A stretch of DNA of 64,000 nt from Mycobacterium sp. Marseille-P9652 (GTDB taxonomy: Bacteria; Actinomycetota; Actinomycetes; Mycobacteriales; Mycobacteriaceae): the NCBI RefSeq assembly GCF_902652685.1, contig NZ_CACRUY010000008.1, forward strand, positions 62,001 to 126,000, given 5' to 3'. Under the pieces are notes generated by a model. The model saw nothing but the letters and a program-made list of their open reading frames with translations. It was not told where the DNA came from and searched no databases. Positions 31,746-50,229 of the stretch are shown piece by piece; position 1 is the stretch's first letter, and every line of letters starts with the position of its first letter. The position numbers and the translations under genes were made by a program.

Positions 31746-32339
31746 TCACGGTTCCGGCCGCGGCGCGGACGCCCCCAGGACAAGACCGACGGCCTCGTCG
31801 AGCTGCCCCGCGATCTCCGGGAACGTGACGAACCGCGCCGTCATCAACGCACCGGCGAACGTCATCTGCAGCGTGGATCTGACCGCCCGGGGCCACCCCG
31901 GGCCGAGCGCCGCGGCGATCCGCCGGGACACCTCCTCGCCGATCTGGTCCCGGATCGGTTTCACCGCCGGATCGTCGGCCATCAGGGCCGCACCGCACGC
32001 GGCGGTCAACTCGGGTTCGTCGGCCACCACCACGGCCATGTCGCGCATGGTCGCGCTGACCCGGCTGCGGGCGGTGTCGTTGACGTCCGTGTGCATCGGC
32101 AGGTCGCGCAGGAAGCGCAGGTACACCGCCGCGACCAGCGCGCTCTTCGACGGGAAGTAGGTGTAAGCGCTCGCGGGTGACACGCCCGCCCGGGTCGCGA
32201 CCGCCCGCATCGTCAGCTTGGCGTAGGAGGACTGGCGAAGTTCCTCCAGGCCGGCATCGAGGACCTTGCGGATCGTCTGACCCGGCCGGCGATCCGAGCG
32301 GCGCGCTGCGCCGGCCGGGGCGGGCGCATCTTTGGACAC
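31746..32339 (-). CDS. TetR family transcriptional regulator
   Basis: This 197-residue regulator has the HTH in IRKVLDAGLEELRQ and VATRAGVSPASAYTYFPSKSALV, followed by an all-helical domain. I chose the GTG at 32339 because it begins just ahead of the DNA-binding domain and lies within a palindrome that is the likely operator. The longer upstream frame would run across the divergent methyltransferase. No good SD is visible, so a leaderless message is possible. The probable targets are itself and the divergent methyltransferase gene 52 bases away. Confidence 0.85.
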   Translation of the reverse strand: MSKDAPAPAGAARRSDRRPGQTIRKVLDAGLEELRQSSYAKLTMRAVATRAGVSPASAYTYFPSKSALVAAVYLRFLRDLPMHTDVNDTARSRVSATMRDMAVVVADEPELTAACGAALMADDPAVKPIRDQIGEEVSRRIAAALGPGWPRAVRSTLQMTFAGALMTARFVTFPEIAGQLDEAVGLVLGASAPRPEP

Positions 32340-32977: not shown

Positions 32978-33826
32978 ATGGAACGTCGCGTGCTGGAAGC
33001 GGTCATCTACGAACGCGAGCCGCCGATCGCGCGGATCATCCTGAACCGGGTCGAGAAGGCCAACACGAAGGACGCCGTGCTGGTCACCGAAGTCGACACC
33101 TGCCTGCGCGAGGCCGACCGCGACAAGGACATCAAAGTCGTCATCCTCAAGGCCAACGGCAAGGGCTTCTGCGGCGGGCACGTCGCCCGCTGGGGACCGG
33201 ACGAAAACCCTTACCCCGACTTCGGAAACACCTTCGAGGACCTGTACAAGGGCACCGCGGACCTGTTCCTGTGGCCCACCCTGTACCTGTGGGAGTTCCC
33301 CAAGCCGACGATCTCGCAGATCCACGGGTACTGCATGGGCGGCGGCATCTATCTGGGCCTGCTGACCGACTTCTGCGTGGCCTCCGAGGACGCGTATTTC
33401 CAGATGCCGCTTGCCCAGAGCCTCGGGGAGCCCGGCGGGCACACCATGATCGAGCCGTGGCTGATGATGAACTGGCACCGCACCATGGACTGGCTGCTGC
33501 TGGCGCCCACGCTGTCGGCGCAGGAGGCGCTCGACTGGGGACTGCTCAACAAAGTGGTGCCGCGCGACGAGCTCGAGGGCACCGTCGAGGACATGGCGCG
33601 CAAGATATCCCAGATCCCGCTGACCACGCTGATGGCGGTGAAGAACAACGTCAAGCGGGCCTGGGAGCTGATGGGCATGCGGGTGCACCTGCAGGTCAGC
33701 CACATCCTCACGAACATGGTGGGCGCCGCGTCCGACGTCCAGGCGCGGCGGGCCGAGCTGATGCAATCCGGCATGAAACCAAGGGATTTCGTGGAACGCG
33801 ACGAGGCCGGCGGGGCACCAGCGTGA
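32978..33826 (+). CDS. Enoyl-CoA hydratase/isomerase family protein
   Basis: This crotonase-fold enzyme of 282 residues shows IILNRVEKANT, the first oxyanion loop GFCGGHVARW and the second IHGYCMGGGIYLGLLTD. The usual Glu pair is not evident at the second catalytic position (QMPLAQSLGEPGG). It is clearly related to the enoyl-CoA hydratase at 38499-39371; both share WEF.KPT, GYC.GGG and the AWELMGMRVH segment. It converges on the large catabolic operon and shares its terminator hairpin. It probably acts in the same pathway as that operon. Confidence 0.85.
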   Translation: MERRVLEAVIYEREPPIARIILNRVEKANTKDAVLVTEVDTCLREADRDKDIKVVILKANGKGFCGGHVARWGPDENPYPDFGNTFEDLYKGTADLFLWPTLYLWEFPKPTISQIHGYCMGGGIYLGLLTDFCVASEDAYFQMPLAQSLGEPGGHTMIEPWLMMNWHRTMDWLLLAPTLSAQEALDWGLLNKVVPRDELEGTVEDMARKISQIPLTTLMAVKNNVKRAWELMGMRVHLQVSHILTNMVGAASDVQARRAELMQSGMKPRDFVERDEAGGAPA

Positions 33827-33847: not shown

Positions 33848-33873
33848 CGAGCGTGACCACAGCGTCACGCTCG
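33848..33873. terminator. Bidirectional terminator-like hairpin between convergent genes
   Basis: CGAGCGTGAC and GTCACGCTCG form a perfect 10-bp stem with the 6-base loop CACAGC. It lies between the stops of the plus-strand enoyl-CoA hydratase and the minus-strand KstD-like gene. There is no U-tract, as is common for mycobacterial terminators. A third copy of GTGACGCTGT-like sequence just upstream gives an alternative fold. Confidence 0.6.
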
Positions 33874-33881
33874 CGGGCGGG

Positions 33882-35582
33882 CTAGCGACTGCGCTCCCCG
33901 GCCACACGGCGACCCGCGGCGTGGCGTGCCGCGACGTAACCGAACACCATCGAGCTGGCGATGCTGGCCCCCGCACCCGGATACGTCCGCCCCATGACCG
34001 TGGCGGTGCTGTTGCCGGTGGCGTAGAGGCCGTCGATCACCCGGTCGTGTTCGTCGAGCACCTGCGCGTACTCGTTCGTGACCACGCCGCCGCACGTCCC
34101 CACGTCCGATGGCAGCACCCTGGTGGCGTAGTACGGCGCGCGGTCGAGCGGTCCGACCGCGGCGTTGGGCCGGTACCCCGGGTCGCCGAGGCAGTCGTTG
34201 TACGCCGACTGGCCGCGCCCGAAATCCGGGTCCAAACCCTTCGCGGCGAACTTGTTGAACCGCTCGATGGTCCGCGCCAATTCGCCTGCGGGAAGGTCGA
34301 TCTGCCGCGCCAGGTCGGCGACGGTGTCTCCCCGCTTGACCGCGCCGGTCTCGATCAGCCCGGGCGGCAGGCCCTGATTGCGCTTCAACGGGTTGGCGCT
34401 CGTGACGTAGCGGTGCACGTACCCGTCGTCGAAGATCATCCAGCACGGCACCGCCTTGTTCGCGTACATCGCCTTGCCGACCTCGACGTAGGAGTTCGAC
34501 TCGTTGCAGAACCGCCGGGCGGTCGAGTCGACGTAGATCGCGCCGGGCCGCTGCCGCCCCGACCCCAGCGACGCCGCCGCGGCGCCCCCGTTCGCGATGA
34601 AAACCGAAGGTAGCCACCATGCCTCGTCGAGCAGGTCGGTCTTGGCGCCCAGCCGCATCGCCGCCTGCAGCGCCTCGCCGGTGTCGCCCGCGTTGGCGAT
34701 GGACCACTGCCCCTCGTTCGGCTGGTCGCCGCTGTACTGGCGGCGCATCTCCTTGTTGTGCGCGAATCCGCCCGAAGCCAGCAGCACACCTTTGCGCGCC
34801 TCGACGTTGAGGGTCGCACCGCCCCGCGAGATCCGGGCGCCGACCACGCGGCCGTCGGAGACGATGAGGTCCTCCATCGCCGCGTCGGTCCACAGCGGGG
34901 GTTGCCCGTCCCCGAGTTCGATGAGCGCCTTGAGCATCTGCCCGATGAGCGAGGCGCCGTTGGTGAGGATCTGACGCCGGCGGGCCCGCGCGGCGGCGGT
35001 CCGCAGGAACACCCGGGTGGCCACCGCGAACGCGCGCGGGGACCGGTTGAAGTACTGCACGGAGCGAAGCTCGTTGGTGAGCACCACGTAGCCGTAGTTC
35101 TTGGCGAGCGGGGGCTGCACCTTGTCGCTCCAGTCGCCGAGTTCGGCGGCGTCGAAGGGGATTCCCTCCACCGCGCGCCCGGCCTCGTTGCCGCCCTTGT
35201 GGTTCGGGTAGTAGTCGCTCCATCCGGCGCAGCGCATGAGGCGCACGCCCTTGCGCATCAGGAAGTTGAGCATCTCGTAGCCGGCGGTGAGGAACATCTC
35301 CCGGCGTGCGGGCGACGAGGCCGGCCCGATGTCGCCGACCACGTCGGCGAGATAGGCCAGTCCGTCCTCGTGCGAGTCGGCGATGCCGTCGGCCCTCATC
35401 AACGGGTTGTTGGGCAGCCACACGATGCCACCGGACAGGCCCGTCGAACCGCCGACCAGCGGCTGCTTCTCAAGGATCAGCGGCTCGAGGCCGCAGTCGA
35501 TGGCGGCCAGGCCGGCGACCATGCCGCCGCCGCCGCTGCCCGCGATCAGCAGGTCGACGGAGCGGTCCCACCCGGTGGTCAT
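33882..35582 (-). CDS. FAD-dependent 3-ketosteroid delta-1-dehydrogenase-like flavoprotein
   Basis: This flavoprotein has 566 residues and belongs to the KstD/fumarate-reductase superfamily. The N-terminal dinucleotide fold shows LIAGSGGGGMVAGLAA, followed by VGGSTGLSGGIVW. The C-terminal GNSTATVMGRTYPGAGASI carries the Tyr-Pro-Gly segment that in KstD donates the active-site Tyr and positions the 3-keto group. It would introduce a C=C bond next to a ketone. It is the last gene of the minus-strand operon, and its ATG overlaps the Rieske stop as ATGA. A true steroid substrate is possible but not shown. Confidence 0.85.
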   Translation of the reverse strand: MTTGWDRSVDLLIAGSGGGGMVAGLAAIDCGLEPLILEKQPLVGGSTGLSGGIVWLPNNPLMRADGIADSHEDGLAYLADVVGDIGPASSPARREMFLTAGYEMLNFLMRKGVRLMRCAGWSDYYPNHKGGNEAGRAVEGIPFDAAELGDWSDKVQPPLAKNYGYVVLTNELRSVQYFNRSPRAFAVATRVFLRTAAARARRRQILTNGASLIGQMLKALIELGDGQPPLWTDAAMEDLIVSDGRVVGARISRGGATLNVEARKGVLLASGGFAHNKEMRRQYSGDQPNEGQWSIANAGDTGEALQAAMRLGAKTDLLDEAWWLPSVFIANGGAAAASLGSGRQRPGAIYVDSTARRFCNESNSYVEVGKAMYANKAVPCWMIFDDGYVHRYVTSANPLKRNQGLPPGLIETGAVKRGDTVADLARQIDLPAGELARTIERFNKFAAKGLDPDFGRGQSAYNDCLGDPGYRPNAAVGPLDRAPYYATRVLPSDVGTCGGVVTNEYAQVLDEHDRVIDGLYATGNSTATVMGRTYPGAGASIASSMVFGYVAARHAAGRRVAGERSR

Positions 35583-36937
35583 CGGGGCACCGTACCGGCG
35601 GGGGCGGTGAAGCCCAGATCGGCCATCGGCACGTCGATCGTGGTGTTGGTCTTCTGGATCGCGGGGACCAGGGCGTCGTAGGGGAGCCCGGCGAGGAACC
35701 CGTCGACGACCCGCTCGAAGTTGGAGATCAGCCCCTCGATGCGGCTGGACAGTCGCATGTACTCAAACCCCTTGGAGTGCAGGCCTTTCTGCTGCCTGGG
35801 CAGGTTGGCGAAGTCCTGGGCGGGGATGGGCGGCCAGCGCGGGTCGTCCGGCGCCATCGGCTCCGGTGGCGTCGGCTTGCCGGTGACCTGGTCGGGTGGG
35901 ATGCGGGTGAGCGACCAGATCTCGAACAGCGTCTCCTCGGGTCCCAGCGGGCGGATCCGGTACGACGAGGCGCTGCTGTACTGGGGGAGCAGGAAGTAGT
36001 GGGGGAACAGGAAATTGATTGCTTCGGTGATGCCGCGCCGCTCCAGCTCGTTGAGGTCGGGCATGTCGCAGCCGCAGGCCAGGTGCCAGGCGACGACAGC
36101 GTCGTTCAGCGCGTGCCGCCAGGCGGCCATCGCCGCCGCCGGGTCCGCCGGTAGCTCCATGGCCTGCAGGCCCTCGGCGATGCGGATGTCGTTTTCGTGG
36201 GTCATGCCCGCCATGCCCTCGCCGAGGGTGCGCATGAAGTACAGGTTCGTCTGGGCCAGCCCCGGTTTGGACGTCTTCGGCATCGAGGACGGCAGCAGCT
36301 GCGGGTGCGTCTGGGGGACGTGGTAGCCCTCCATGAAGGCCGCCGTGGCCAGCTTCCAGTTCACCGGCAGCCGGCACGCCTGCCACCACTCGACCCGCAG
36401 CGACTCCACCTTCCACTCGTCGTAGATGGAGGCGAACGGCTCGAAGCAGTCCCGCAGCGGCGGCGCGTCGGTGTCGAGGTTGATCCATGCGCACCCGCCC
36501 CAGAGCTCGCAGCGGACCGAAACCAGCCGCAGATCTTCGGAATTCAGGTTGTGCTCGTCGAACTCCTCGGGACGCAGGACGAAGGTGTTGCGGCCGTCGA
36601 TGCCCCAGCACCAGCCGTGGAAGGGGCATACGAAGGTGCGGCGGTTGCCGCCACCCTCCACCAGCTTGACCCCCCGGTGGCGGCAGGCGTTGTGGTAGGC
36701 GCGCACGGTGTCGGCGTCCAGCCGGACGACGATGATCGACTCGTCGAGGATCTCGTACTCGACGTAGTCGCCGGGCTTCGGGATTTCCTCCAGCCGGCAG
36801 GCCATCTGCCACACCCGCGGCCAGAGCATCTCGCACTCCGCGGCGTAGAACTCGGGGTCGTAGTAGCGCTGCTTGGGGATGCGGTCCGGGGTCTGGACCG
36901 CCCACGGCACCGGCAGCGGTGCCCAGTTCACATCCAT
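35579..36937 (-). CDS. Rieske non-heme iron oxygenase, alpha subunit
   Basis: This aromatic-ring-hydroxylating oxygenase large subunit has 452 residues. The N-terminal [2Fe-2S] Rieske site is CRHRGVKLVEGG followed by CPFHGWCW. The mononuclear iron site begins with EGYHVPQTHP, which supplies two His ligands. No beta subunit, ferredoxin or reductase is encoded next to it. The ATG at 36937 has an AGGAAGAG site about 5 bases upstream. It is coupled to the KstD-like gene, a pairing that recalls steroid ring opening (KshA/KstD), but it is longer than KshA and the cluster otherwise differs. Confidence 0.88.
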   Translation of the reverse strand: MDVNWAPLPVPWAVQTPDRIPKQRYYDPEFYAAECEMLWPRVWQMACRLEEIPKPGDYVEYEILDESIIVVRLDADTVRAYHNACRHRGVKLVEGGGNRRTFVCPFHGWCWGIDGRNTFVLRPEEFDEHNLNSEDLRLVSVRCELWGGCAWINLDTDAPPLRDCFEPFASIYDEWKVESLRVEWWQACRLPVNWKLATAAFMEGYHVPQTHPQLLPSSMPKTSKPGLAQTNLYFMRTLGEGMAGMTHENDIRIAEGLQAMELPADPAAAMAAWRHALNDAVVAWHLACGCDMPDLNELERRGITEAINFLFPHYFLLPQYSSASSYRIRPLGPEETLFEIWSLTRIPPDQVTGKPTPPEPMAPDDPRWPPIPAQDFANLPRQQKGLHSKGFEYMRLSSRIEGLISNFERVVDGFLAGLPYDALVPAIQKTNTTIDVPMADLGFTAPAGTVPR

Positions 36938-36950
36938 GGCTCTTCCTCGT

Positions 36951-38486
36951 TCAGACGATCCGGGACACGCGCCCCTGCCAATATCGTTCGCGCAGGCGCC
37001 GCTTGTACAGCTTTCCGTTCGGGTCCCGGGGCAACTCCGGGGTGAAGTCGACGGTGCGCGGGCACTTGTAGCCGGCCAGGTGAGCCCGGCAGTGCGCGAT
37101 GAGCTCGGCCTCGAGGTCGGGGCCCGCCGCCACGCCGTCCGCCGGTTGGACGACGGCCTTGACCTCCTCGCCGAACTCGTCGTTGGGGACGCCGAACACC
37201 GCGGCGTCGGCCAGCTTGGGGTGCATGACGAGCAGGTTCTCGACCTCCTGCGGGTAGATGTTGACCCCACCCGACACGATCATGAACGTCGAGCGGTCGG
37301 TGAGGTAGAGGTAGCCGTCGTCGTCGAGGTAGCCCATGTCGCCCAGCGAGCGCCAGCCGCGATCGTTGGCCACCGACGCGGTCTTGACCGGATCCTTGAA
37401 GTACTCGAAGTCGGGTCCACCCTCGAAGAACAACTCGCCAGGCTCGCCCGCGGGAAGCTCGGCCCCGTCCTCGCCCAGGACGTGCACGGCAGTCATCGGC
37501 CTGCCGACCGAGCCGGGGTGCGCCAGCCACTCCTCGGGCCCGATCGTCGTCCCCGCGAATCCCTCGGTGCCGCCGTAGTATTCGTGGATGATGGGCCCGA
37601 ACCAGTCCATCATCCGGTGCTTGACGTCCACCGGGCAGGGCGCGGCGGCGTGGATCACGCAGCGCAGGCTCGACACGTCGTAGCCCTCGCGGACGGCCTT
37701 GGGCAGCTTCAGCATCCGCACGAACATCGTGGGGACGAACTGCGCGTGCGTCACGCGGTGCGTTTCGATCAGCCGCAGCACGGTTTCGGCGTCGAACTTG
37801 CGCATCAGGATGGAGGCGGCGCCGACGCGGTTGACCGCCATCGTGTAGTTGACCCCCGCCGCGTGATACAGCGGGGCGGGGGAGAGGTACACGCTGTCGG
37901 AGCTCATGCCGTACTTGTGGACGAGCGCCATCTCCAGCACCGCCTGGGCCCACGAGCCGTTGCCGTCGACCGGCAGCGGCCGGCGAACGGCCTTGGGCCG
38001 CCCCGTGGTTCCCGACGAGTACAGCATCTCCGAGCCGTCCGAGTGCGGCGGCGGATCGCCGGCCGAGGCCAGCGCGTCCTCGTAGGTCCGCCACCCCGGC
38101 AGCCCGCCCCCGACCGCGACATGGAGCTTGACCCCCGAGTTGACCCGCAGGATGTGCTCCGCGAGTTCGGGCATCGACGCGTCGACGAAGACCGCGTGGG
38201 CGTCGGAGTCGTCGACGACGTAGGCGACCTCGTCCGGCGTGAAGTGGGTGTTGACCGCGGTGTAGTAGAGCCCGGAAAGTTGGCAGCCCCAGGTGATTTC
38301 GAAGAATTCGGGCCGGTTGGGCAGCACCAGGGCCACGCCGTCGCCGCGGCGCAGCCCCGCCTCGTGCAGGAGCGCCGCGGCCCGCAGGCTCCGCTCGTGC
38401 AGCGCCGAGTACGAGATGGTGTCGCCGTCCGCGATCACGAGAGCCACCGAGTCGGGGGCCGTCGCGGCGTGGTCGGCGATGTTCAT
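36951..38486 (-). CDS. Acyl-CoA synthetase (FadD-type AMP-binding enzyme)
   Basis: This ANL-superfamily ligase has 511 residues. The P-loop is YSSGTTGRPKAVRR, and the adenine motif is YYGGTEG. The hinge region is GDMGYLDDDGYLYLTDRS, and the catalytic Lys lies in the C-terminal PRDPNGKLYKRRLRE. It activates a carboxylic acid as acyl-AMP and then acyl-CoA. It sits in the middle of the minus-strand operon, 12 bases after the enoyl-CoA hydratase, and is the probable entry or re-activation step of the pathway. The chain or ring preference cannot be read from sequence. Confidence 0.9.
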   Translation of the reverse strand: MNIADHAATAPDSVALVIADGDTISYSALHERSLRAAALLHEAGLRRGDGVALVLPNRPEFFEITWGCQLSGLYYTAVNTHFTPDEVAYVVDDSDAHAVFVDASMPELAEHILRVNSGVKLHVAVGGGLPGWRTYEDALASAGDPPPHSDGSEMLYSSGTTGRPKAVRRPLPVDGNGSWAQAVLEMALVHKYGMSSDSVYLSPAPLYHAAGVNYTMAVNRVGAASILMRKFDAETVLRLIETHRVTHAQFVPTMFVRMLKLPKAVREGYDVSSLRCVIHAAAPCPVDVKHRMMDWFGPIIHEYYGGTEGFAGTTIGPEEWLAHPGSVGRPMTAVHVLGEDGAELPAGEPGELFFEGGPDFEYFKDPVKTASVANDRGWRSLGDMGYLDDDGYLYLTDRSTFMIVSGGVNIYPQEVENLLVMHPKLADAAVFGVPNDEFGEEVKAVVQPADGVAAGPDLEAELIAHCRAHLAGYKCPRTVDFTPELPRDPNGKLYKRRLRERYWQGRVSRIV

Positions 38487-38498
38487 TGGCGGACCGGC

Positions 38499-39371
38499 CT
38501 AACTGGTTGCGGCACCGTCGGTCTGGGAAGCCGCGGCCGCCTGGCGCCGCGCCTGCTCGGCCGGCAGCACCTTGTCCTTGAACACCGTCTGGATCAGCTC
38601 CTGCACGTCCCTGCTGATGGAGGCGAGCGCGACGAGGTCGTTGGAGCTCTGCCAGTGCACCCGCATGCCCATCAGCTCCCACGCGCGCTTGAGGTTGGCC
38701 TTGGTCGCCAGCAGCGTCGTCATCGGCGCCTGGGCGATGTGGCGGGCGATGGTCTCGACCCGGTCGGTCAGCTGTTCGCGCGGGACCACCTCGTTGATCA
38801 GGCCGTACTCCAGCGCCTTGTGGGCGTCGACGACCTCGGCGGTGTACAGGTAGTAGGCGGCTCGCCGCCAGTTCATGAAAACCCAGGGCTCGATGGAGCA
38901 TTCGCCCGACGGCATGCCGAACCCCTGCAGCGGCGGGTAGGAGAAGTAGGCGTCCTCCGACGCGATGACGATGTCGGTGGTCAGCCCGTAATGCGTGCCC
39001 CCGCCCACGCAGTAGCCGTGCACCTGCGCGATCGTCGGCTTGGAGAACTCCCACAGGTTGAGCACCGGCTTGACGAACAGGTCGGTCTGCGGCTTCCAGG
39101 GCGTGCCCATCACTTTCGCGCCCTCGACGAAGGCCGGGTAGTCGACCGCGTTGTTGCCGATCGCGTGTCCGGAGCAGAAGCCCTTGCCGTTGGCCTTGAG
39201 GATCACGACCTTGATGTCGTAGTCGCGGTCGGCGTCGAGCAGCGCCGCGTCGACCTCCTCGGCCAGCTTCTGGTCCTGGGCGTTGGCCTTCTCCGGCCAG
39301 TTCAGCGTGACACGCGCGATCGGGCCCTCCTTTTCGTAGATGATCCTCTCGCGGGTCTCGTTGAGGTCCAT
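38499..39371 (-). CDS. Enoyl-CoA hydratase/isomerase family protein
   Basis: This crotonase-fold protein has 290 residues. It shows VTLNWPEKANAQD, the first oxyanion loop GFCSGHAIG, and the second VHGYCVGGGTHYGLTTD. The C-terminus is Ala/Gln-rich. It is a close paralogue of the product at 32978-33826. Its place between the lipoyl protein and FadD in the operon suggests hydration or retro-aldol cleavage of a CoA intermediate made by these genes. Confidence 0.87.
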   Translation of the reverse strand: MDLNETRERIIYEKEGPIARVTLNWPEKANAQDQKLAEEVDAALLDADRDYDIKVVILKANGKGFCSGHAIGNNAVDYPAFVEGAKVMGTPWKPQTDLFVKPVLNLWEFSKPTIAQVHGYCVGGGTHYGLTTDIVIASEDAYFSYPPLQGFGMPSGECSIEPWVFMNWRRAAYYLYTAEVVDAHKALEYGLINEVVPREQLTDRVETIARHIAQAPMTTLLATKANLKRAWELMGMRVHWQSSNDLVALASISRDVQELIQTVFKDKVLPAEQARRQAAAASQTDGAATS

Positions 39372-39406
39372 TCGCTGCCCTTTCTCCGGTTACGTCGCTT
39401 GTCGAC

Positions 39407-39643
39407 TTATGAAGTGATGACGCCAATTTCGGCGCCGATGTCGTAGACGGTCCCGACCTGGCCGGTCCACTGCACGGTGCCCGATGCCCCGGCCTCGATC
39501 TCCTGCTCCACCTTCTCGGTGGCGATCACGTAGATGGGCGTCCCCTCGTCGACGTGCTCGCCGGCGTCGACGAGGAGCCCGGTCAGCTCGGCCTCGGAGA
39601 CGGCCACGGAAACCCGCGGGATGCGAATGACGAAGTCAGCCAT
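39407..39643 (-). CDS. Free-standing lipoyl (biotinyl/lipoyl-like) domain protein
   Basis: This 78-residue protein is a single lipoyl domain and nothing else. The swinging-arm lysine is K44 in IATEKVEQEI, at the tip of the expected hairpin, flanked by the Gly residues of GEHVDEGTP and GASGTVQW. It overlaps the E1-beta gene by 8 bases and follows E1-alpha/E1-beta, so it is the acyl acceptor of this 2-oxo acid dehydrogenase. E2 proteins normally add a peripheral-subunit-binding domain and a catalytic acyltransferase core of 230 residues or more; both are absent. No E3 gene is nearby. Confidence 0.85.
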   Translation of the reverse strand: MADFVIRIPRVSVAVSEAELTGLLVDAGEHVDEGTPIYVIATEKVEQEIEAGASGTVQWTGQVGTVYDIGAEIGVITS

Positions 39644-40634
39644 GGACCTTGGCCCTCTGGAGGGTGCTCAGCGCGGCGGCGACAATGCGCGACGGCGAGG
39701 GGTACACCTGCGCCTCGAGCGCAGGTGCGGCGGGGTTGGGAACGAACCGGGCGCCGACGCGTTCGATGGGCGCGGCCAGCTCGCCGAACAACTCGGCCTG
39801 CAATATCGCGGCGATTTCGGCCCCGGGACCGGCGAACTGGACGGCGTCGTGCACGACGACGACGCGCCCTGTGCGGCGGGCGGATTCGACGATGGTGTCG
39901 ACGTCGAGGGGCACGAGGGTGCGCAGGTCGACCACCTCGGCGCTGACCTGTTGCTCCTGGAGGGTGGCCGCCGCCGCCAGCGCGTCGTGCACGCTGCGCC
40001 CGTAGGCGATCAGGGTCACGTCGGTGCCGGGCCTCTTGACGTCGGCCTGCCCCAACGGGATCGAGAACCCGGGTTCGAGCGGGACCGGACCCTTTTTGCT
40101 CTGCAGGCGGATCGTCTCGACGAACAGGCAGGGGTCCTCGTCGAAGATCGCCGCGGTCAGCAGGCCTTTGGCGTCACGCGGCGTGGCGGGCACGATCACC
40201 TTCATGCCGGGGATGTGCATGAACCACGCCTCCAGGCTCTGGGAGTGCGTGGCGCCCGTCGCCAGCCCCCCGTAGACCTGGGTGCGGATGGTGATCGGTG
40301 CCGTCGTGCGGCCCGCGGTCATGAACCGTAGCTTGGCGGCGTTGTTGATCAGCTGGTCGGCGGCGATGCCGATGAAGTCCATGATCATGATCTCGGCCAC
40401 CGGCAGCATGCCGTCGATCGCCGCCCCGATGGCGGCGCCCACGATCGCGGCCTCCGAGATGGGCGTGTCGAGCACCCGTTCGTGGCCGTATTTCGTCGAC
40501 AGGCCGGCGGTGGGTCCCGACGCGCCGGGGTCGGCGATGTCCTCACCGAGCAGGAACACCCGCTCGTCGGCCGCCAGGGCCTCGTCCAGTGCGAGGTTCA
40601 GCGCCTCGCGCATCGTCATTTCTTTTTCGTCCAT
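39636..40634 (-). CDS. 2-oxo acid dehydrogenase E1 component, beta subunit (transketolase-like)
   Basis: This E1-beta-type protein has 332 residues and is of the PDH/BCKDH/acetoin dehydrogenase class. Typical segments are MREALNLALDEAL, FLLGEDIADPG, TPISEAAIVGAAIGAA, FIGIAADQLINNAAK and the C-terminal transketolase domain starting GTDVTLIAYG. It pairs with the adjacent E1-alpha to form the thiamine-diphosphate heterotetramer. The ATG at 40634 is preceded by a GTG at 40637 directly after the E1-alpha stop. The reaction is decarboxylation of a 2-oxo acid (or cleavage of an acetoin-like compound) and acyl transfer to lipoyl. Confidence 0.9.
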   Translation of the reverse strand: MDEKEMTMREALNLALDEALAADERVFLLGEDIADPGASGPTAGLSTKYGHERVLDTPISEAAIVGAAIGAAIDGMLPVAEIMIMDFIGIAADQLINNAAKLRFMTAGRTTAPITIRTQVYGGLATGATHSQSLEAWFMHIPGMKVIVPATPRDAKGLLTAAIFDEDPCLFVETIRLQSKKGPVPLEPGFSIPLGQADVKRPGTDVTLIAYGRSVHDALAAAATLQEQQVSAEVVDLRTLVPLDVDTIVESARRTGRVVVVHDAVQFAGPGAEIAAILQAELFGELAAPIERVGARFVPNPAAPALEAQVYPSPSRIVAAALSTLQRAKVHG

Positions 40635-40637
40635 CAC

Positions 40638-41627
40638 TCACACCGGAAACTTGATCGGAGTGGCATACACGTCGCGGTCGAGTTCGTCGGCGGCCGGGGC
40701 ATCCGCGGCCATCACCGCGGCCAGGGCGCTTTCCACAGCGGTCAGCGCCTCCGCCTCGATGCGGTCGAGTTCGTCTGCGCCGCAGATCCCCGCCTGGGCG
40801 AGGTGGTCACGGAACCGCGGCACCGGGTCGGCCGCCATCGCCTCGGCAAGTTGATCCTTGGGAATGTAGGGCATGCGGTCGCCGAAGTAGTGGCCGCGGA
40901 AGCGGAAGGTTTCGCACTCGAGCAACGTCGGGCCGCCCCCGGCCCGCGCCCGCTCCAGCGCGGCTTCCAGCGCGGTCTTGACCGCCAGCGGATCGTTGCC
41001 GTCGACGCGGACGCCCGGCATGCCGTATCCCGCCGCCCGCTCGGCCACGTGCTCGAGTTTCATGGTGTCCGTCGTCGGCGTCATCTCCGCGTAGCGGTTG
41101 TTCTGGCACACGAAAACCGTTGGGAGGCACCACAAAGCGGCCATGTTGGCCGCCTCGTGGAACGACCCGGTGTTGGTGGCGCCGTCGCCGAAGCTGACCA
41201 CCGTGACGCGGTCGAGGCCCTTGCGTCGGGCGGCCATGGCCAGTCCGACCGCCACGGGCGGTCCGGCCCCGACGATTCCGGTGGACAGCATGACGCCCTT
41301 CGCTGGGTTCGCGATGTGCATGGTGCCGCCCTTGCCGCGGCTCGCGCCGACGGTGCGACCCATCATCTCGCCGTAGATCTCTTCCAGCGGAACACCCTTG
41401 CCGATGAGGTCGTGCAGGCCGCGGTACGTGGTGACCAACTGGTCGTCGGGTCGCAGGCACACACCCATCGCGGCGGCGATGGCCTCCTGGCCGCGCGACG
41501 GCCAGTAGACGCACATGAACTCGCCGGTCCCGATGCCCTTGGACAGCCGGTCGTCGGCCGCCTTCATGAGCACCATCAGTTCGTACAGGCGGCGCTCGAC
41601 GCCCCTCCCCGAATCCCGTTCGCTCAC
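40638..41627 (-). CDS. Thiamine-dependent 2-oxo acid dehydrogenase E1 component, alpha subunit
   Basis: This E1-alpha protein has 329 residues and carries the thiamine diphosphate motif GDGATNTGSFHEAANMA, with QNNRYAEMTP following. The N-terminus includes VYWPSRGQEAIAAAMG and TTYRGLHDLIGKG, and the regulatory-loop region is GASRGKGGTMHIA. It resembles acetoin-dehydrogenase-type E1-alpha rather than the single-chain AceE of mycobacterial PDH. The GTG at 41627 is 8 bases after the SDR stop; the exact start is uncertain because a good SD is not clear. It abuts E1-beta without a gap. Confidence 0.88.
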   Translation of the reverse strand: MSERDSGRGVERRLYELMVLMKAADDRLSKGIGTGEFMCVYWPSRGQEAIAAAMGVCLRPDDQLVTTYRGLHDLIGKGVPLEEIYGEMMGRTVGASRGKGGTMHIANPAKGVMLSTGIVGAGPPVAVGLAMAARRKGLDRVTVVSFGDGATNTGSFHEAANMAALWCLPTVFVCQNNRYAEMTPTTDTMKLEHVAERAAGYGMPGVRVDGNDPLAVKTALEAALERARAGGGPTLLECETFRFRGHYFGDRMPYIPKDQLAEAMAADPVPRFRDHLAQAGICGADELDRIEAEALTAVESALAAVMAADAPAADELDRDVYATPIKFPV

Positions 41628-41635
41628 AGCGCCGC

Positions 41636-42499
41636 TCAGCCCCCCGACCACGGCTTCACCTTGAGGAAGCCGCCGGCGTCGACACGCAGCTGCTGGCCGG
41701 TGATGTAGCGCGCCGCGTCCGAGGCCAGGAAGAGGACGGCCTCGCTGATGTCCTCGGGTTCGACGTAGGGGATGGGCATCGCCTGCACCACCGGGAAGAC
41801 CGGCTCGGCGTCCGCGCGCGTCGGCTCCTTCAGGTCGGGCCGGAAGGCCCGGTACATCGGCTCGCTGTGCAGCATGTCGGTGTTGACATTGGTCGGATGG
41901 ACCGCGTTCATGCGGATGGAGAACGGCGCCAGGGCCAGGGCGAAGTCGTTGACATAGTGCGCGGCAGCGATTTTCGCGAACGCATAGCCGGCGCCGCCCG
42001 GACCACCGTCGATGCCGGTGGTGTTCATCGACGACATGAACGCCGCGTTCGACCCGATCACGATGATCGACGCGCCCGCCTGGAGATGCTTCAGGCTCGC
42101 GTGCACCAGGTTGAGGACGCCGACCAGGTCCACGTCGACGGCGTCGGCGAACGCCTGCGGCGGCAGTCCGGCGGTGAGCGGGCAGATGCCGGCGTTCGCG
42201 ACCACGATGTCGAGGTGGCCGAACTCGGCCACGCCCGCCTCGATCGCGGCGCCCAGGGCCACGCGGTCGCGGACGTCGGCGATGGCCGTGTACGCGCGCT
42301 GGCCCTCCTTCTCGACCAGCCGCGCCGTCTCGTCGAGGTCTTCCGGCCGGGCGAGCGGGTATCGGTTGGTTTCGATGTCCGCGCACAGATCCACGGCGAT
42401 GATGTCGGCGCCCTCGGCGGCCAGCATCCTTGCGTGGGAGCGCCCCTGACCGCGGGCCGCCCCGCTGATCACGGCGACCTTACCCGTCACCCTGCCCAT
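41636..42499 (-). CDS. Mycofactocin-type SDR family oxidoreductase
   Basis: This short-chain dehydrogenase has 287 residues, with the loop SGAARGQGRSHARM typical of mycofactocin-linked SDRs, the long insert after IAVDLC, the Ser near IGSNAAF and the pair Y and K in YAFAK. The C-terminal PVVQAMPIPYVEPEDISEAV is closely similar to that of the SDR at 11662-12498, so the two pathways use related enzymes. The ATG at 42499 has GGAGG 8 bases upstream. It is the first gene of the eight-gene minus-strand operon. Confidence 0.87.
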   Translation of the reverse strand: MGRVTGKVAVISGAARGQGRSHARMLAAEGADIIAVDLCADIETNRYPLARPEDLDETARLVEKEGQRAYTAIADVRDRVALGAAIEAGVAEFGHLDIVVANAGICPLTAGLPPQAFADAVDVDLVGVLNLVHASLKHLQAGASIIVIGSNAAFMSSMNTTGIDGGPGGAGYAFAKIAAAHYVNDFALALAPFSIRMNAVHPTNVNTDMLHSEPMYRAFRPDLKEPTRADAEPVFPVVQAMPIPYVEPEDISEAVLFLASDAARYITGQQLRVDAGGFLKVKPWSGG

Positions 42500-42718
42500 G
42501 GTCCGTCCTCCGTCATCGTGGCCGAATCTCAATCATGTTGCTGCTCAGGATCATTCGCCACGGCACCGGGCCGCCGCACCGGAGACCGGGCTCGTCCAAT
42601 GGTCGGCTCCATCGCATCTCTTCCGCGAACACACTGCGCGTGGCTGCGGCCGGGCTATCGATATCCCTTAGAGTAGCTAGAATACTTAAAATAGCAAGAA
42701 AGGCCCGAGGGGGTGGCG
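42500..42718. promoter_or_regulatory. Divergent promoter region of the 33-44 kb catabolic cluster
   Basis: This 219-base gap lies between the minus-strand operon and the CaiB gene. The 55 bases before the CaiB start are strikingly AT-rich, with CCCTTAGAGTAGCTAGAATA then CTTAAAATAG. AGTA and TACT form an imperfect inverted repeat, and TAGAAT or TAAAAT suit a -10 box for the plus strand. No regulator gene adjoins it, so control is probably exerted in trans. Confidence 0.4.
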
Positions 42719-43939
42719 ATGCCCGGTGTCCTGCAGGGTGTCCGTGTTGTCGAACTGGCGTCGTGGACCTACGTCCCGTCGGCCGGCGCCGCGCTGGCGG
42801 ATTGGGGCGCCGACGTGATCAAGGTGGAAGGGGTCGCCTCGGGCGATCCCGGACGGGCGCTGGTGGTCGGCGGTTTCACGCGCGAGGCGGCCCGGCCGGA
42901 CGCCGACTTCATCCTCGAGCTCGGCAACCGGGGCAAGCGCAGCATCGCCGTCGACATCAAGTCCGAGGCGGGCCGCGAGTTCTTCGGCAGGCTGCTGGCC
43001 AGTGCCGACGTGTTCCTCACGAACTGGCTGCCCGGCGCGCTGGAGCGGGCGAGGCTGACGGTCGAGGACATCCGCTCCTTCAACCCCGACATCATCATCG
43101 CCCGCGGCACCGGGCTGGGCGTGCGCGGACCGGACCGGGACCGCGGCGGATTCGACGCGGCCACCTACCTGGCCCGGGGCGGCGTGGCGTACACGCTGAC
43201 GCCGTTCGGCTCGGAGACGCCGGCCGTCCAGGGGCCGGCTTTCGGCGACCTGCAGGGCGGGGCGACGCTGGCCGGCGGCGTGTGCGCCGCCCTGTTCCAC
43301 CGGGAACGCACCGGCAAGGCGACGATCGTCGACTCCTCCCTGCTGGCGCAGGCGATGTGGGCCATCGCGCCGTCGATCTGCGCGGCCGACTTCTTCGGCA
43401 TCGACGGTATCCCGGGGGCGCCGCCCGGGCTGGCGATCAACCCCTTGGTCAACAGGTACAAGACCAAAGACGGCAGATGGATCCAGCTCGTCTTCCTCCA
43501 GCCCGACAAGTTCTGGGCCGGCTTCTGCCACCGCATGGGGTTGCCGGAGCTGGCGACCGACGAGCGGTTCGTGCCGTCGAGCAACCTGATCGCCAATGCG
43601 GCGGAGGCGACCGCCATCTTCAACGACGCGTTCGCCGCCCACGACCTCGCGCACTGGCAGAAGGTTCTCGAGGACGAGCCGGGGGTCTGGGGTGCGCTGG
43701 CGACACCGCGGGAGACGCTCAACGACCCGCAGGTCGAGCCCAACGGGTACGTGGTGACCAACGTCGACGACCACGGCGAGAAGTACCGGCTCGTCGCCGC
43801 GCCCGTCCAATTCGACGAGACGCCGCCCGCCCCTGCGCGGGCCCCGGAGCACGGCCAGCACACGGAGGAAGTGCTGCTCGAGCTCGCGGTCGACTGGGAC
43901 GACATCGCCCGCGCGAAGGATCTCGGGGCGATACTGTAA
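42719..43939 (+). CDS. CaiB/BaiF family CoA-transferase
   Basis: This single-domain family III CoA-transferase has 406 residues. Marks are GVRVVELASWTYVPSAG, LADWGADVIKVEG, the SIAVDIKSEAGRE strand and the catalytic Asp in FGDLQGGATLAGG. It transfers CoA between carboxylates by way of an aspartyl-CoA thioester. I prefer the ATG at 42719, 5 bases after a GAGGGGG site, to the GTG at 42713. It is divergent from the eight-gene operon and probably feeds the same pathway by activating a substrate with CoA from an intermediate. Confidence 0.88.
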   Translation: MPGVLQGVRVVELASWTYVPSAGAALADWGADVIKVEGVASGDPGRALVVGGFTREAARPDADFILELGNRGKRSIAVDIKSEAGREFFGRLLASADVFLTNWLPGALERARLTVEDIRSFNPDIIIARGTGLGVRGPDRDRGGFDAATYLARGGVAYTLTPFGSETPAVQGPAFGDLQGGATLAGGVCAALFHRERTGKATIVDSSLLAQAMWAIAPSICAADFFGIDGIPGAPPGLAINPLVNRYKTKDGRWIQLVFLQPDKFWAGFCHRMGLPELATDERFVPSSNLIANAAEATAIFNDAFAAHDLAHWQKVLEDEPGVWGALATPRETLNDPQVEPNGYVVTNVDDHGEKYRLVAAPVQFDETPPAPARAPEHGQHTEEVLLELAVDWDDIARAKDLGAIL

Positions 43940-46160: not shown

Positions 46161-47525
46161 ATGACGTCATTCATGCGCGCGAGCGACGCCTTCACCTGGG
46201 CGATGGAGACCGACCCACGGCTGCGGTCGACCGTGGTGAGCGTGGTGCTCCTGGACCGCTCGCCGGACTGGGACGAGGTGCGCGAACGCTTCGACCTGAT
46301 CAGCCGCAAGCTCCCCATGTTCCGGCAACGGGTCGTCGAGTCACCACCGCCGACCCCGCCGCGCTGGGAGTACTACCGGGACTTCGACCTCGACTACCAC
46401 CTGCGACGGATCGCCCTCCCCGCGCCGGGCACGCTCGACGACGTGCTCGAGCTGGCCCGGGTGGCCGAGATGCAGGACTTCGACCGGGCCCGCGCGCTGT
46501 GGGAGACCACCTTGATCGACGGCCTCGAAGACGGCGGCGCGGCGATGATGTGCAAGTTCCACCACGCTCTCACCGACGGCGTCGGCGGCGTCCAGATCGC
46601 CATGCACCTGTTCAACCTGTCCGAGGCGCTCTACGAGCACGAACCCCTGCCGCCAGAACCCGAGGTGTCGAACCCCGGGCCGCTGAGCGGATACCGCGAC
46701 ACGTGGCGATACGACGTCGGTCTGCTCGGCAGCGCGGTCGCGGGGGCGGTCAGGGGCGCGCCGCGGATGGTGGTCGACACGGCCCGGCGGCCCGTCGCCA
46801 CGGTGCGATCCGCCGCGTCCACCGCCGCATCGGTGTACCGCACCGTCCGGCCGATCGGCCGGCCCGGTTCGCCACTGGTGACCCGGCGCGGTTTGACCCG
46901 GCGCCTCGGCGTGCACGAGGTGCCGATGCCGCTCCTGCGGGAGGCGGCGCACCGGTGTGGCGGGGCGCTCAACGACGCCTTCGTCGCCGGCGTGGCCGGG
47001 GGCCTGCGCCGCTATCACGAGAAGCACGGGGTCTCCGTCGGCGACCTGCACCTCACGATGCCGGTCAGCCTGCGCACCAAGGCCGACGACATGGGCGGTA
47101 ACCGGATCACCCTGATGCGCTTCGACGTACCCGTCGGCGAGGCCGACCCAGCCGCCCGGATCAAGGCCGTCCACGAGCGCACGTCCACGGTGCGCGGGGA
47201 AGGCTCGCTGCCCTACACGCAGCTGATCGCCGCCGCGCTGAACCTGATGCCGCGCTGGTACATCGGTTCGGTGCTGCGCCACGTCGACTTCCTGGCCAGC
47301 GACGTGCCGGGCGTGCCCGTGCCCGTCTTCCTCGGCGGGGCCCCGGTGCGCGCCCAGTACGCCTTCGGTCCCACGATCGGCGCGTCGGTCAACGTCACGC
47401 TGCTCACCTACGTCGACACCTGCGCCCTCGGAATCAACGTCGACACCGCCGCGATCCCGGATTTCGACGTCTTCCATGACGCGCTTGTCGCGGGCTTCGA
47501 CGAAATACTGGCGCTGGCACGCTGA
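46161..47525 (+). CDS. Wax ester synthase/diacylglycerol acyltransferase (Tgs family)
   Basis: This WS/DGAT enzyme has 454 residues and makes triacylglycerol or wax esters from acyl-CoA. The acyltransferase motif HHALTDG is complete, with His134, His135 and Asp139. The PLW-type segment reads RALWETTLIDGL, and the C-terminal half has the family NDAFVAGVAGGLRRYHEKHG and ASDVPG-like motifs. From gene order and sequence it looks like the counterpart of M. tuberculosis Rv1760. The ATG at 46161 has AAGGGAG upstream. Members act at the inner membrane and form storage lipid under hypoxia or stress. Confidence 0.88.
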   Translation: MTSFMRASDAFTWAMETDPRLRSTVVSVVLLDRSPDWDEVRERFDLISRKLPMFRQRVVESPPPTPPRWEYYRDFDLDYHLRRIALPAPGTLDDVLELARVAEMQDFDRARALWETTLIDGLEDGGAAMMCKFHHALTDGVGGVQIAMHLFNLSEALYEHEPLPPEPEVSNPGPLSGYRDTWRYDVGLLGSAVAGAVRGAPRMVVDTARRPVATVRSAASTAASVYRTVRPIGRPGSPLVTRRGLTRRLGVHEVPMPLLREAAHRCGGALNDAFVAGVAGGLRRYHEKHGVSVGDLHLTMPVSLRTKADDMGGNRITLMRFDVPVGEADPAARIKAVHERTSTVRGEGSLPYTQLIAAALNLMPRWYIGSVLRHVDFLASDVPGVPVPVFLGGAPVRAQYAFGPTIGASVNVTLLTYVDTCALGINVDTAAIPDFDVFHDALVAGFDEILALAR

Positions 47526-48074: not shown

Positions 48075-48821
48075 TCAGCGCGCCCACACGGGCGAGCCGG
48101 CGGCCTTGCGGAGCGCCTGGGTGATGCGCCGCTCCTTGTGCCGGAACCGCTCGGAGGGCGCCGGGACGGAGATGGCGACCACCCCGTGGGCGGCGGTGCG
48201 TCGCGCGATGGCCGCCGCGGAGATGCCCGGCGTGTGCTCGTCGCGGTCGAAAGCAAGGCCATTGCAACGGATCTCGTCGATCTCGTCGCGCAGCCGGTCG
48301 GCGGTTTCGGGGTCCAGGCGCGACAGGACGACCCGCGCTTCTGCGTCGTCGAGTGCCGCCAGGGCCGCCTTCCCGTTGGCCGTCGACTCCAACGGGAAGC
48401 GGACACCGACGGCCGACACCGCCCGCAGCCGGTGTGTGGACTCGATCTGGTCGATGAACCGCATCCGCCGCCCCCGCAGCACCGACAGGTCGACGGTCTC
48501 GCCCCCGGTGGCCTGCGCCACGCCCTCGATGGTCGGACGGAAGATCGCCGCAATGCGGGCGCCGTCGGCCCGCCCCATGCCCAGTAGCCGCTCGCCGACG
48601 GAGAACCGGCCCCGGGAGTCGACGCTGGCCAACCCGACCTCGACCAGGCCGACGAGCAGGCGGCGAGTCGTCGATTTGGCCAGCCCGAGCCGCTCACCGA
48701 GGTCCACCAGGCGCAGTTGACCGGGCTCGGCGGCGATCTCGTCCAGCGCGGCGGCGGCCCTGCGTAACACCTGGATGCCCTCGTCGCGTCCAGTTGGCGA
48801 ACTGTCCCCCGTATTCGACAC
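48075..48821 (-). CDS. IclR family transcriptional regulator
   Basis: This 248-residue regulator has an N-terminal winged HTH (LRLVDLGERLGLAKSTTRRLLVGLVEVGL) and a C-terminal GAF-like effector domain with the family segments LRAVSAVGVRFPLESTANGKAAL and GVVAISVPAP. From sequence and neighbours it is the probable counterpart of M. tuberculosis Rv1773c. The GTG at 48821 lies 6 bases downstream of a TATAGT -10 box, so the message is probably leaderless. It is divergent from the FAD oxidase and presumably controls it. IclR proteins often respond to aromatic or short-chain acids. Confidence 0.87.
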   Translation of the reverse strand: MSNTGDSSPTGRDEGIQVLRRAAAALDEIAAEPGQLRLVDLGERLGLAKSTTRRLLVGLVEVGLASVDSRGRFSVGERLLGMGRADGARIAAIFRPTIEGVAQATGGETVDLSVLRGRRMRFIDQIESTHRLRAVSAVGVRFPLESTANGKAALAALDDAEARVVLSRLDPETADRLRDEIDEIRCNGLAFDRDEHTPGISAAAIARRTAAHGVVAISVPAPSERFRHKERRITQALRKAAGSPVWAR

Positions 48822-48826
48822 ACGTC

Positions 48827-48836
48827 CACTATAGTG
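48827..48836. promoter_or_regulatory. Overlapping divergent -10 boxes in a palindrome (IclR / FAD oxidase)
   Basis: CACTATAGTG is a perfect 10-base palindrome in the 67-base gap. It supplies TATAGT as a -10 hexamer on both strands: minus strand for the IclR gene, plus strand for the oxidase, which then has a leader of about 47 bases with GGAGAGG before its ATG. The two promoters overlap, so they should compete. The promoter assignment is inferred. Confidence 0.5.
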
Positions 48837-48888
48837 ATCCGCACAGCGAATCAGCAAAGACCGAAATGCGGTTCAAAGGAGAGGCAGT

Positions 48889-50229
48889 ATGGGCGCGCTT
48901 CCGGCCGGGCGGCATTACTTCCGTGGCGACGAGGGTTACGAGGACGCCCGCCGCGCCACCGTCTGGCACCAGGGCGTGCCCGAGCGCTACCCCGAGGTGA
49001 TCGTCCAGGCCGTGGACGCCGACGACATCGTCGCCGGCCTGCGTTACGCGAAGGCCCACGGACACACGGTCAGCATCGTCTCGGGCGGACACAGCTTCGC
49101 GGCCAGCCACCTTCGTGACGGCGCCGTGCTGCTCGACGTCAGCCGCCTGGACCACGCCACCATCGACGCCGAGAACAAGACCGCGGTCGTGGGCCCCGGC
49201 AAGGGCGGCAGCCTGCTCATGGCCGACCTCGAGGCGCAGGGCCTGTTCTTCCCCGGCGGCCACTGCAAGGGCGTCTGCCTCGGCGGTTATCTGCTGCAGG
49301 GCGGGTACGGCTGGAACAGCCGCGTCTACGGGCCGGCGTGCGAGAGCGTCGTCGGACTGGACGTCATCACCGCCGACGGCGAACGGATCTACTGCGACGC
49401 CGACCATCACCCCGACCTGTTCTTCGCCGCACGCGGCGCCGGCCCCGGGTTCTTCGGCGTGGTGACCTCGTTCCACCTCAAGCTGTACCCGCGCCCGGCG
49501 GTGTGCGGCACCAGCGTCTACGTCTATCCCTGGGACGTCGCCGACGAGATCTACACCTGGGCCCGAAGCATCAGCGCCGAGGTCGATCGCCGCGTCGAGA
49601 TGCAGGCCATCGCCACCCGCAGCCTGCCCGAGATGGGCATCGACACCCGCGCCATCGCCTTCGCGTCGCCGGCGTTCGCCGACTCCGAGGAGGAGGCAGA
49701 GCAGGCGCTGGCCATCTTCAGCACCTGCCCGGTGGTGGACAAGGCGCTGGTGAAAGTTCCCTACATGCCCAGCGACCTGCCCACCTGGTACACCGCGGTC
49801 ATGACCCACTACCTCGACGACCACCGCTACGCGGCGGACAACATGTGGACCTCGGCGCCTGCGGAGCAGCTGCTCCCCGGCATCCGGACGATCCTCGACA
49901 CGATGCCGCCCTCCCCGTCGCACTTCCTCTGGCTGAACTGGGGGCCGTCCCCCCAGCGCCAGGAGATGGCCTACAGCGTGGAAGACGAGATCTACCTGGC
50001 GCTCTACGGCTCGTGGAAGGATCCCGCCGACGACGCCAAATACGGCGACTGGGCGGGATCGAACATGGCCGCCATGTCGCACCTCGCGACCGGCATCCAG
50101 CTGGCCGACGAGAACCTGGGCCGCCGGCCCGCCCGCTTCGCCTCCAACGAGGCGATGGCCCGCCTCGATAAGGCGCGCGCCACCTACGACCCCGATGGTT
50201 TGTTCAACAGCTGGATGGGACGGCTCTAG
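48889..50229 (+). CDS. FAD-binding oxidase (berberine-bridge/vanillyl-alcohol oxidase type)
   Basis: This is a 446-residue PCMH-type flavoprotein. The His of the SGGHSF loop and the Cys of GGHCKGVCLGGY occupy the positions used for bicovalent FAD attachment in berberine-bridge-type oxidases. The C-terminal YDPDGLFNSWMG is the usual family end. By sequence and position it is the likely counterpart of M. tuberculosis Rv1774. It oxidises an alcohol or phenolic substrate with O2. The next gene begins directly after its stop, so the two products probably act on one substrate. Confidence 0.87.
   Translation: MGALPAGRHYFRGDEGYEDARRATVWHQGVPERYPEVIVQAVDADDIVAGLRYAKAHGHTVSIVSGGHSFAASHLRDGAVLLDVSRLDHATIDAENKTAVVGPGKGGSLLMADLEAQGLFFPGGHCKGVCLGGYLLQGGYGWNSRVYGPACESVVGLDVITADGERIYCDADHHPDLFFAARGAGPGFFGVVTSFHLKLYPRPAVCGTSVYVYPWDVADEIYTWARSISAEVDRRVEMQAIATRSLPEMGIDTRAIAFASPAFADSEEEAEQALAIFSTCPVVDKALVKVPYMPSDLPTWYTAVMTHYLDDHRYAADNMWTSAPAEQLLPGIRTILDTMPPSPSHFLWLNWGPSPQRQEMAYSVEDEIYLALYGSWKDPADDAKYGDWAGSNMAAMSHLATGIQLADENLGRRPARFASNEAMARLDKARATYDPDGLFNSWMGRL

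Follow-up and report, generated by a model that had tools for sequence, protein, structure and literature searches.

A ten-gene block of Mycobacterium, probably a pathway for a cyclic compound, and its link to a clade of Rieske-associated E1/lipoyl enzymes

Each of the enzyme families considered here is already known from described systems. Among the CntA/GbcA-type Rieske monooxygenases, the bridging glutamate of CntA (E205) is described as an electron carrier between subunits in the excerpted text of PMC7948474. A KstD-like flavoprotein is paired with a Rieske oxygenase in the KstD/KshA system, the acetoin, pyruvate and branched-chain 2-oxo acid dehydrogenase complexes combine an E1-alpha, an E1-beta and a lipoyl carrier, and the mycofactocin-associated carveol dehydrogenases are represented by the structure 3PXX. 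Our study of a 64,000-nucleotide stretch of the Mycobacterium sp. Marseille-P9652 genome (contig NZ_CACRUY010000008.1, positions 62,001 to 126,000; hereafter the window) showed that relatives of all of these enzymes are encoded side by side in a real and conserved block of ten genes, which is probably a single pathway for a cyclic compound. The association of a Rieske oxygenase with a pyruvate dehydrogenase (PDH)-like E1 that has its own small lipoyl protein extends to other bacteria, and this Rieske-linked E1/lipoyl clade is the strongest new point of our analysis.

The block shares features with each of the described systems and departs from each of them. Its Rieske protein has a KstD-like neighbour, but none of the 29 PDB sequences that it matched at E 1e-10 was named KshA, the 3-ketosteroid 9-alpha-hydroxylase, and we know of no counterpart of the E1/lipoyl enzyme in the KstD/KshA pathway. 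GbcA is its best NCBIfam match, but at 109 bits against a cut-off of 670, and the block has neither a reductase gene nor any sign of a quaternary amine. Unlike the classical E1 complexes, the lipoyl domain of the block is a free protein of 78 aa and no E2 gene is part of the block. A preliminary description of this DNA had named no described pathway that uses this set of genes, and no description of the gene set or pathway was found in the literature searched, nor were the combination of families, its conservation in a permuted order, or the link between E1/lipoyl and Rieske genes. In the excerpts available of two related papers, a pyruvate dehydrogenase E1 gene appears in a figure legend on aromatic clusters (PMC6498646) and the enzyme discussed is a different thiamine diphosphate (ThDP) lyase (PMC7176365).

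Gene content and conservation in Mycobacterium

Eight of the ten genes lie on the minus strand and probably form one operon. It begins with a mycofactocin-coupled short-chain dehydrogenase/reductase (SDR; 41636-42499, 287 aa) and continues with the E1-alpha (40638-41627, 329 aa, PF00676) and E1-beta (39636-40634, 332 aa, PF02779/PF02780) of a ThDP-dependent dehydrogenase, a free-standing lipoyl-domain protein (39407-39643, PF00364 at E 1.6e-9, with the lysine in ..TEKV..), a first, enoyl-CoA hydratase-like crotonase (38499-39371, 290 aa, PF00378), a FadD-type acyl-CoA ligase (36951-38486, 511 aa, PF00501 and PF13193), a Rieske oxygenase alpha subunit (35579-36937, 452 aa, PF00355/PF00848) and a KstD-like FAD dehydrogenase (33882-35582, 566 aa). 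The positions and families previously given for these genes were borne out by sequence, Pfam and NCBIfam, and the proposal of a conserved catabolic operon of this composition is supported. From SDR to KstD-like, the intergenic gaps are 8, 3, -8, 35, 12, 13 and -4 bases, in agreement with the maximum of 35 bases reported earlier, although the overlaps number two (the first of them between the E1-beta and lipoyl genes) rather than several. The corresponding gaps in relatives have medians of -8 to 38 bases, and 68-100% of them are at most 60 bases (66-80 relatives per gene pair), with gaps of up to 2783 bases in single loci. The conserved unit is larger than the eight genes first proposed, since a divergent CaiB/BaiF (family III) CoA-transferase gene (42713-43939, plus strand, PF02515) and a convergent second crotonase gene (32978-33826, plus strand, PF00378) belong to it too. 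In a comparison with four named species, the ratio of non-synonymous to synonymous change (pN/pS) was 0.04-0.33 for each of the ten genes, and all eight operon genes are under purifying selection.

Conservation in other species was assessed by scanning named genomes with the Rieske gene, which leaves loss of the Rieske gene itself invisible, and by analysing the best 80 of 162 confirmed loci, a gene being scored as present if at least 65% identical over 80% of its length. The block is conserved, as the preliminary description had supposed, but as a set of ten genes, all of which are present in 54 of the 80 Mycobacterium loci. In these complete loci, Rieske and FadD have the lowest median identity (83%) and SDR and the second crotonase the highest (93%), the individual identities of the second crotonase lying between 90 and 95%. 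By reading, the 26 incomplete loci comprise seven cut by contig ends, seven with a second gene layout (mostly cut by the 10-kb flank), six otherwise full loci in which the CaiB/BaiF gene is absent or incomplete in the stretch, five with internal E1 deletions, and that of M. lepraemurium, where the block is there with several genes matching in separate pieces and the SDR and CaiB genes were not found in the stretch (L152). The CaiB/BaiF and second crotonase genes were also present in nearly all sufficiently long loci among 40 same-genus loci around Rieske matches. A Rieske match at E 1e-60 was found in 64 of the 198 genomes of a genus sample, a few of these being partial or distant; many of the named carriers of the block are slow growers (palustre, bohemicum, scrofulaceum, gordonae, gastri, colombiense and others).

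The ten genes occur in two layouts. In layout A, that of the window, the second crotonase gene (plus strand) is followed by the KstD-like, Rieske, FadD, crotonase, lipoyl, E1-beta, E1-alpha and SDR genes (minus) and by CaiB (plus). In layout B the order is FadD, crotonase, lipoyl, E1-beta, E1-alpha and SDR (minus), CaiB and second crotonase (plus), then KstD-like and Rieske (minus), with other genes interspersed between some of them; for the ten genes, it is a cyclic permutation of layout A. Layout B is partly visible in seven named loci, where FadD lies outside the stretch, and is seen with all ten genes in one genome (G122, in the overlapping stretches L071 and L191). Retention of the gene set through such a rearrangement is firmer evidence for one pathway than plain synteny would be. 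A second lineage with a four-gene core only was considered and rejected, as the missing genes were seen beyond the cut in other loci.

The SDR passes the TIGR03971 cut-off (335.4 vs 300 bits), which supports the mycofactocin coupling proposed for it, and the block is a concrete candidate for a mycofactocin-dependent pathway. The closest solved structure of the SDR is 3PXX, a 'carveol dehydrogenase' of M. avium (E 5e-104), to which the SDR aligns without gaps through the N-terminal half, suggesting that it shares the sequence insertion at the NAD site. According to the excerpted text of PMC5264612, saturation transfer difference nuclear magnetic resonance showed weak binding of carveol to 3PXX and stronger binding of carvone. 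It is probably a paralogue of the block SDR rather than its orthologue, because the SDR of a sibling cluster in the Marseille-P9652 genome (see below) scores higher against it (376 vs 351 bits). A mycofactocin maturase is encoded in the same genome (G000:C55, 675 bits). The co-occurrence check suggested earlier proved uninformative and was rejected as evidence, because the maturase is present in 80/80 congeners tested, that is, in 40/40 with the Rieske gene and in 40/40 without it, some of the latter being taken as misses because they were not among the matches listed.

Association of the E1/lipoyl clade with Rieske oxygenases

Searches with E1-alpha alone identified 29 places at E 1e-85 outside the block orthologues, and all of their neighbourhoods were scanned with profiles, built partly from linked loci. 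A Rieske gene (at least 60 bits, no more than 11 kb from E1-alpha) was found at 25 of them, including G222, for which it lies in the adjacent stretch L079. As controls, we chose 20 E1 places of 38-43% identity from a phylum search, and a Rieske gene was near two of these (L209, and weakly L213). The difference is significant by place (25/29 vs 2/20, Fisher p 1e-7) and by genus (9/10 vs 2/19, Fisher p 5e-5, a genus being positive if any of its E1 places has a Rieske gene), to be read with the facts that the controls come from more distant taxa, some on short contigs, and that Rieske density varies between genomes. Within the genus Mycobacterium, a Rieske gene accompanies 3/6 E1 places. A quick E1-alpha tree of 62 rows splits 42 rows of this E1 type from the 20 controls with a support of 100 in the Shimodaira-Hasegawa-like approximate likelihood ratio test (SH-aLRT), and all 13 non-block rows of the starred, 18-row clade that holds the window E1-alpha have a nearby Rieske gene. 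Starting from the Rieske gene, the link is only partly supported: a clade E1 lies within about 21 kb of 5/5 Rieske matches outside the genus (order search), but the two Sphingobium plasmids inspected, of four with a 44-46% Rieske match, have no E1 annotated within 15 kb of the Rieske gene, in an annotation known to be incomplete.

The linked clusters are spread over several families of actinobacteria and also occur on a plasmid of Azospirillum, and many of them contain further relatives of the block genes. A KstD-like gene is found with Rieske, E1 and lipoyl genes at ten places (L066, L081, L170, L174-L177, L179, L193 and L223) and with Rieske and E1 genes at L083, with weaker KstD-like matches at L184, L189, L221 and L222. 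According to their annotation, the plasmid of Azospirillum sp. B510 (L200) encodes Rieske, E1-alpha, E1-beta, lipoyl, AMP-binding and FAD-binding proteins, and a Streptomyces plasmid encodes Rieske, 2Fe-2S, E1-alpha, E1-beta and lipoyl proteins and a more distant FAD-binding protein, together with a CoA-transferase, a crotonase and an amidohydrolase. On a Rhodococcus plasmid, E1, Rieske and FAD-dependent proteins are encoded without an annotated lipoyl gene, and in Sphingobium RAC03 lipoyl, FAD-binding and E1 genes are present, with no Rieske gene found in the stretch. Related clusters often encode an Amidohydro_2 protein as well, and none was found among the window genes scanned (about 24.8-52.0 kb). 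At L174, L175 and L191, hints to a substrate class are given by genes for an amidohydrolase-2, a TauD dioxygenase, a beta-keto acid cleavage enzyme and ChsH2-like and thiolase-like proteins in the related clusters. The E1-alpha/E1-beta pair at L172 (G049:C25), also a member of this clade, has Rieske, TetR and aldehyde dehydrogenase genes and one for an RPE65-type carotenoid cleavage oxygenase on its upstream side.

Proposed pathway and alternative explanations

On the basis of the gene content, its conservation, the link of the E1 clade to Rieske genes and the conserved catalytic residues, we propose, at a probability of about 0.42, that the ten genes form an inducible catabolic pathway for a cyclic carboxylic acid or CoA ester (carried as such or converted to it), in which the E1/lipoyl enzyme cleaves between oxygenated carbons; here we infer the inducibility, the substrate, the order of the steps and the choice between acyloin and diketone. 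FadD or the family III CoA-transferase would activate the substrate, the mycofactocin-SDR would oxidise a secondary alcohol to a ketone, and the KstD-like flavoprotein would desaturate the position adjacent to a ring ketone. The Rieske protein, with a reductase from elsewhere, would hydroxylate a neighbouring carbon, and E1-alpha/beta with the free lipoyl protein would then cleave the C-C bond between the oxygenated carbons of an acyloin or 1,2-dicarbonyl in the manner of acetoin dehydrogenase. The acyl group would be left on the lipoyl arm, and its transfer to CoA would require an E2 catalytic domain encoded outside the block; breakdown of the chain would be completed by the crotonases. If cleavage of oxygenase-made acyloins or diketones by E1 is true, it would constitute a new enzymatic route of ring opening, other than by a dioxygenase, a Baeyer-Villiger enzyme, a hydrolase or a retro-aldol reaction, and would provide a handle on the diet of many environmental and opportunistic mycobacteria.

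The proposed order of steps is supported by a sibling cluster in the Marseille-P9652 genome (G000:C19, 46500-66300; L171). It encodes an SDR (64% identity), a crotonase (53%), E1-alpha and E1-beta (51-55%), a lipoyl protein, an acyl-CoA dehydrogenase and luciferase-like and thiolase-like proteins, with a cytochrome P450 gene in place of the Rieske gene. The same sub-set of genes is thus found with another oxygenase, which fits the succession of oxygenase, alcohol oxidation and E1. It is possible, though we regard it as doubtful, that a distinct class of split E1/lipoyl complexes has evolved with Rieske and KstD-like partners, in both Actinomycetota and Pseudomonadota, as a ring- or chain-opening device. 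The oxygenase and the dehydrogenase would then form the acyloin or 1,2-dicarbonyl within a cyclic substrate, and E1 would split it, with transfer to the free lipoyl protein.

Several observations weigh against the proposed pathway with cleavage between oxygenated carbons. E1 homology cannot separate 2-oxo acids from acyloins as substrates, the ten genes include no ferredoxin or reductase gene, and a five-seed profile found no E2 catalytic domain in the window or in the 82 block loci scanned, of which some are short. Four of the 29 clade E1 places have no Rieske gene in the stretch (L171, L187, L188 and L225), and in the relatives from Paraburkholderia and Diaphorobacter no Rieske gene was found in the stretch that holds the E1-alpha, E1-beta, lipoyl and E2 genes. 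Furthermore, five of the 80 named loci (L105, L126, L128, L129 and L138) have lost E1 wholly or mostly, while keeping the Rieske, KstD-like and first crotonase genes, and four of these five have also lost the lipoyl gene wholly or partly. In M. intermedium, the SDR, E1 and lipoyl genes are all gone; in M. asiaticum 1081914.2, E1 and lipoyl are gone; M. shimoidei and Mycobacterium sp. E2479 retain fragments of the E1-alpha and lipoyl genes; and a metagenome-assembled genome has E1 remnants and keeps the lipoyl gene, with FadD gone, the second crotonase split and 10 N in the stretch. The E1 remnants end at different points, making several losses likely, and assembly faults may be the cause of some deletions, foremost in the metagenome-assembled genome. 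Loss of E1 with retention of the Rieske, KstD-like and first crotonase genes argues that the E1 arm is separable from, and dispensable for, the remainder in these loci; a different E1 may substitute there, or else the E1 reaction is not obligatory or comes late in the pathway.

The alternative that survives best is that the E1/lipoyl enzyme is an ordinary 2-oxo acid dehydrogenase, decarboxylating a 2-oxo acid formed after the ring has been opened by another enzyme, for example a crotonase; we think this somewhat unlikely. Oxidative decarboxylation of a 2-oxo acid had been predicted for this locus and still stands, but as just one of two plausible E1 reactions. The E1-alpha is a Pfam E1_dh protein that aligns best to 2-oxo acid dehydrogenases, its top match among solved structures being human PDH E1-alpha (E 5e-52), with the branched-chain enzyme scoring lower. 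However, it falls below both PDH E1-alpha equivalog cut-offs (267 vs 394 and 241 vs 411 bits), although these models target PDH alone, and E1-beta is likewise below the PDH cut-offs (313 vs 321 and 303 vs 454 bits). The annotation of a relative in Sphingobium (47%) is acetoin:DCPIP oxidoreductase alpha subunit. The gene set contains no obvious step that would form a 2-oxo acid, and the failure to find an E2 gene in the block loci counts against an ordinary complex as well. The lipoyl protein matches the lipoyl domain of a solved E2 (E 8e-5), and three E2 domains are encoded on other contigs of the Marseille-P9652 genome, their frames being 401, 635 and 1261 aa long. Where clusters of the clade hold an E2 catalytic domain, it seems, from the lengths of the reading frames, to be a free protein: stop-to-stop frames with this domain are 234-293 aa long in L181, L182, L194, L198, L199 and L225, 444 aa in L170 and 389-564 aa in seven control loci. 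The clade thus appears to use a split E2, in which case the mycobacterial block must borrow the catalytic half or manage without it.

A steroid or sterol pathway, in which the KstD-like protein would be a true 3-ketosteroid dehydrogenase and the Rieske protein would act on the same nucleus, is improbable, though it has the KstD-like protein itself in its favour. In line with its first description as KstD-like, this protein passes the cut-off of the NCBIfam 3-ketosteroid-delta-1-dehydrogenase model NF009478 (869 vs 789 bits), with 7P18 (E 3e-96) and 4C3X as best PDB matches. Its residues Y124, Y365, Y534 and G538, which align with the catalytic Tyr/Tyr/Tyr/Gly of KstD1, are all kept in seven of eight KstD-like seed sequences, the exception being that of Streptomyces. 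A distant version in G159 also adjoins OB_ChsH2_C, thiolase-like and P450 genes. On the other hand, the KstD-like protein also scores with 4-oxocyclohexanecarboxylate-type dehydrogenases, far below their cut-offs, and the Rieske partner is of the glutamate-bridged type, like CntA: its ligand positions (C85, H87, C104, H107, H206 and H211) and a glutamate at the bridging position (E203) are present in 14/14 seed sequences, the window protein included. With no KshA-named match either, nothing points specifically to a sterol, and the earlier guess of a sterol-like substrate was not upheld. The nearest NCBIfam model to the FadD protein is FadD4, at 616 bits against a cut-off of 850.

Least probable of all is a detoxification or lipid-tailoring cluster with E1/lipoyl as an easily lost auxiliary arm, rather than a growth pathway, which would suit the five E1 deletions. 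The presence of two CoA-activating enzymes and of two crotonases favours catabolism instead, and the relatives of E1 sit in degradation-type clusters.

Operon boundaries, candidate regulator and neighbouring genes

The divergent promoter region between SDR and CaiB (42500-42712) contains a core, CTTGCTATTTTAnnTATTCTAGCTA (42674-42698, minus strand), that is conserved in an alignment of 72 distinct sequences. The exact core is present in 49 of the 69 loci that have both SDR and CaiB, and in 0/9 layout B loci among those. It is a single site in the Marseille-P9652 genome at up to three mismatches, no further copy being found in the window or elsewhere in that genome. The best candidate for a regulator of the block is a TetR-type gene near the second crotonase (31746-32285, minus strand, start approximate, TetR_N), relatives of which are kept in 53 of the 80 named loci.

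At the other end, the operon was said to stop at a perfect 10-bp hairpin. The stem is indeed present between the convergent genes (33848-33873, minus strand, with a 6-nt loop and without a T-run), but we rejected it as a generally conserved terminator, as a perfect stem of at least 8 bp is found at only 16/69 convergent junctions in relatives and the hairpin is not among the sites of a terminator scan (2 sites vs 4.1 in shuffles).

A wax ester synthase/diacylglycerol acyltransferase gene lies near the block (46161-47525) in the window and in some relatives, though not all. Further along, at 48075-51051, an IclR regulator gene is divergent from genes for a FAD_binding_4 oxidoreductase and a DAPG-hydrolase (PhiG domain) protein, forming a separate small cluster of catabolic appearance.

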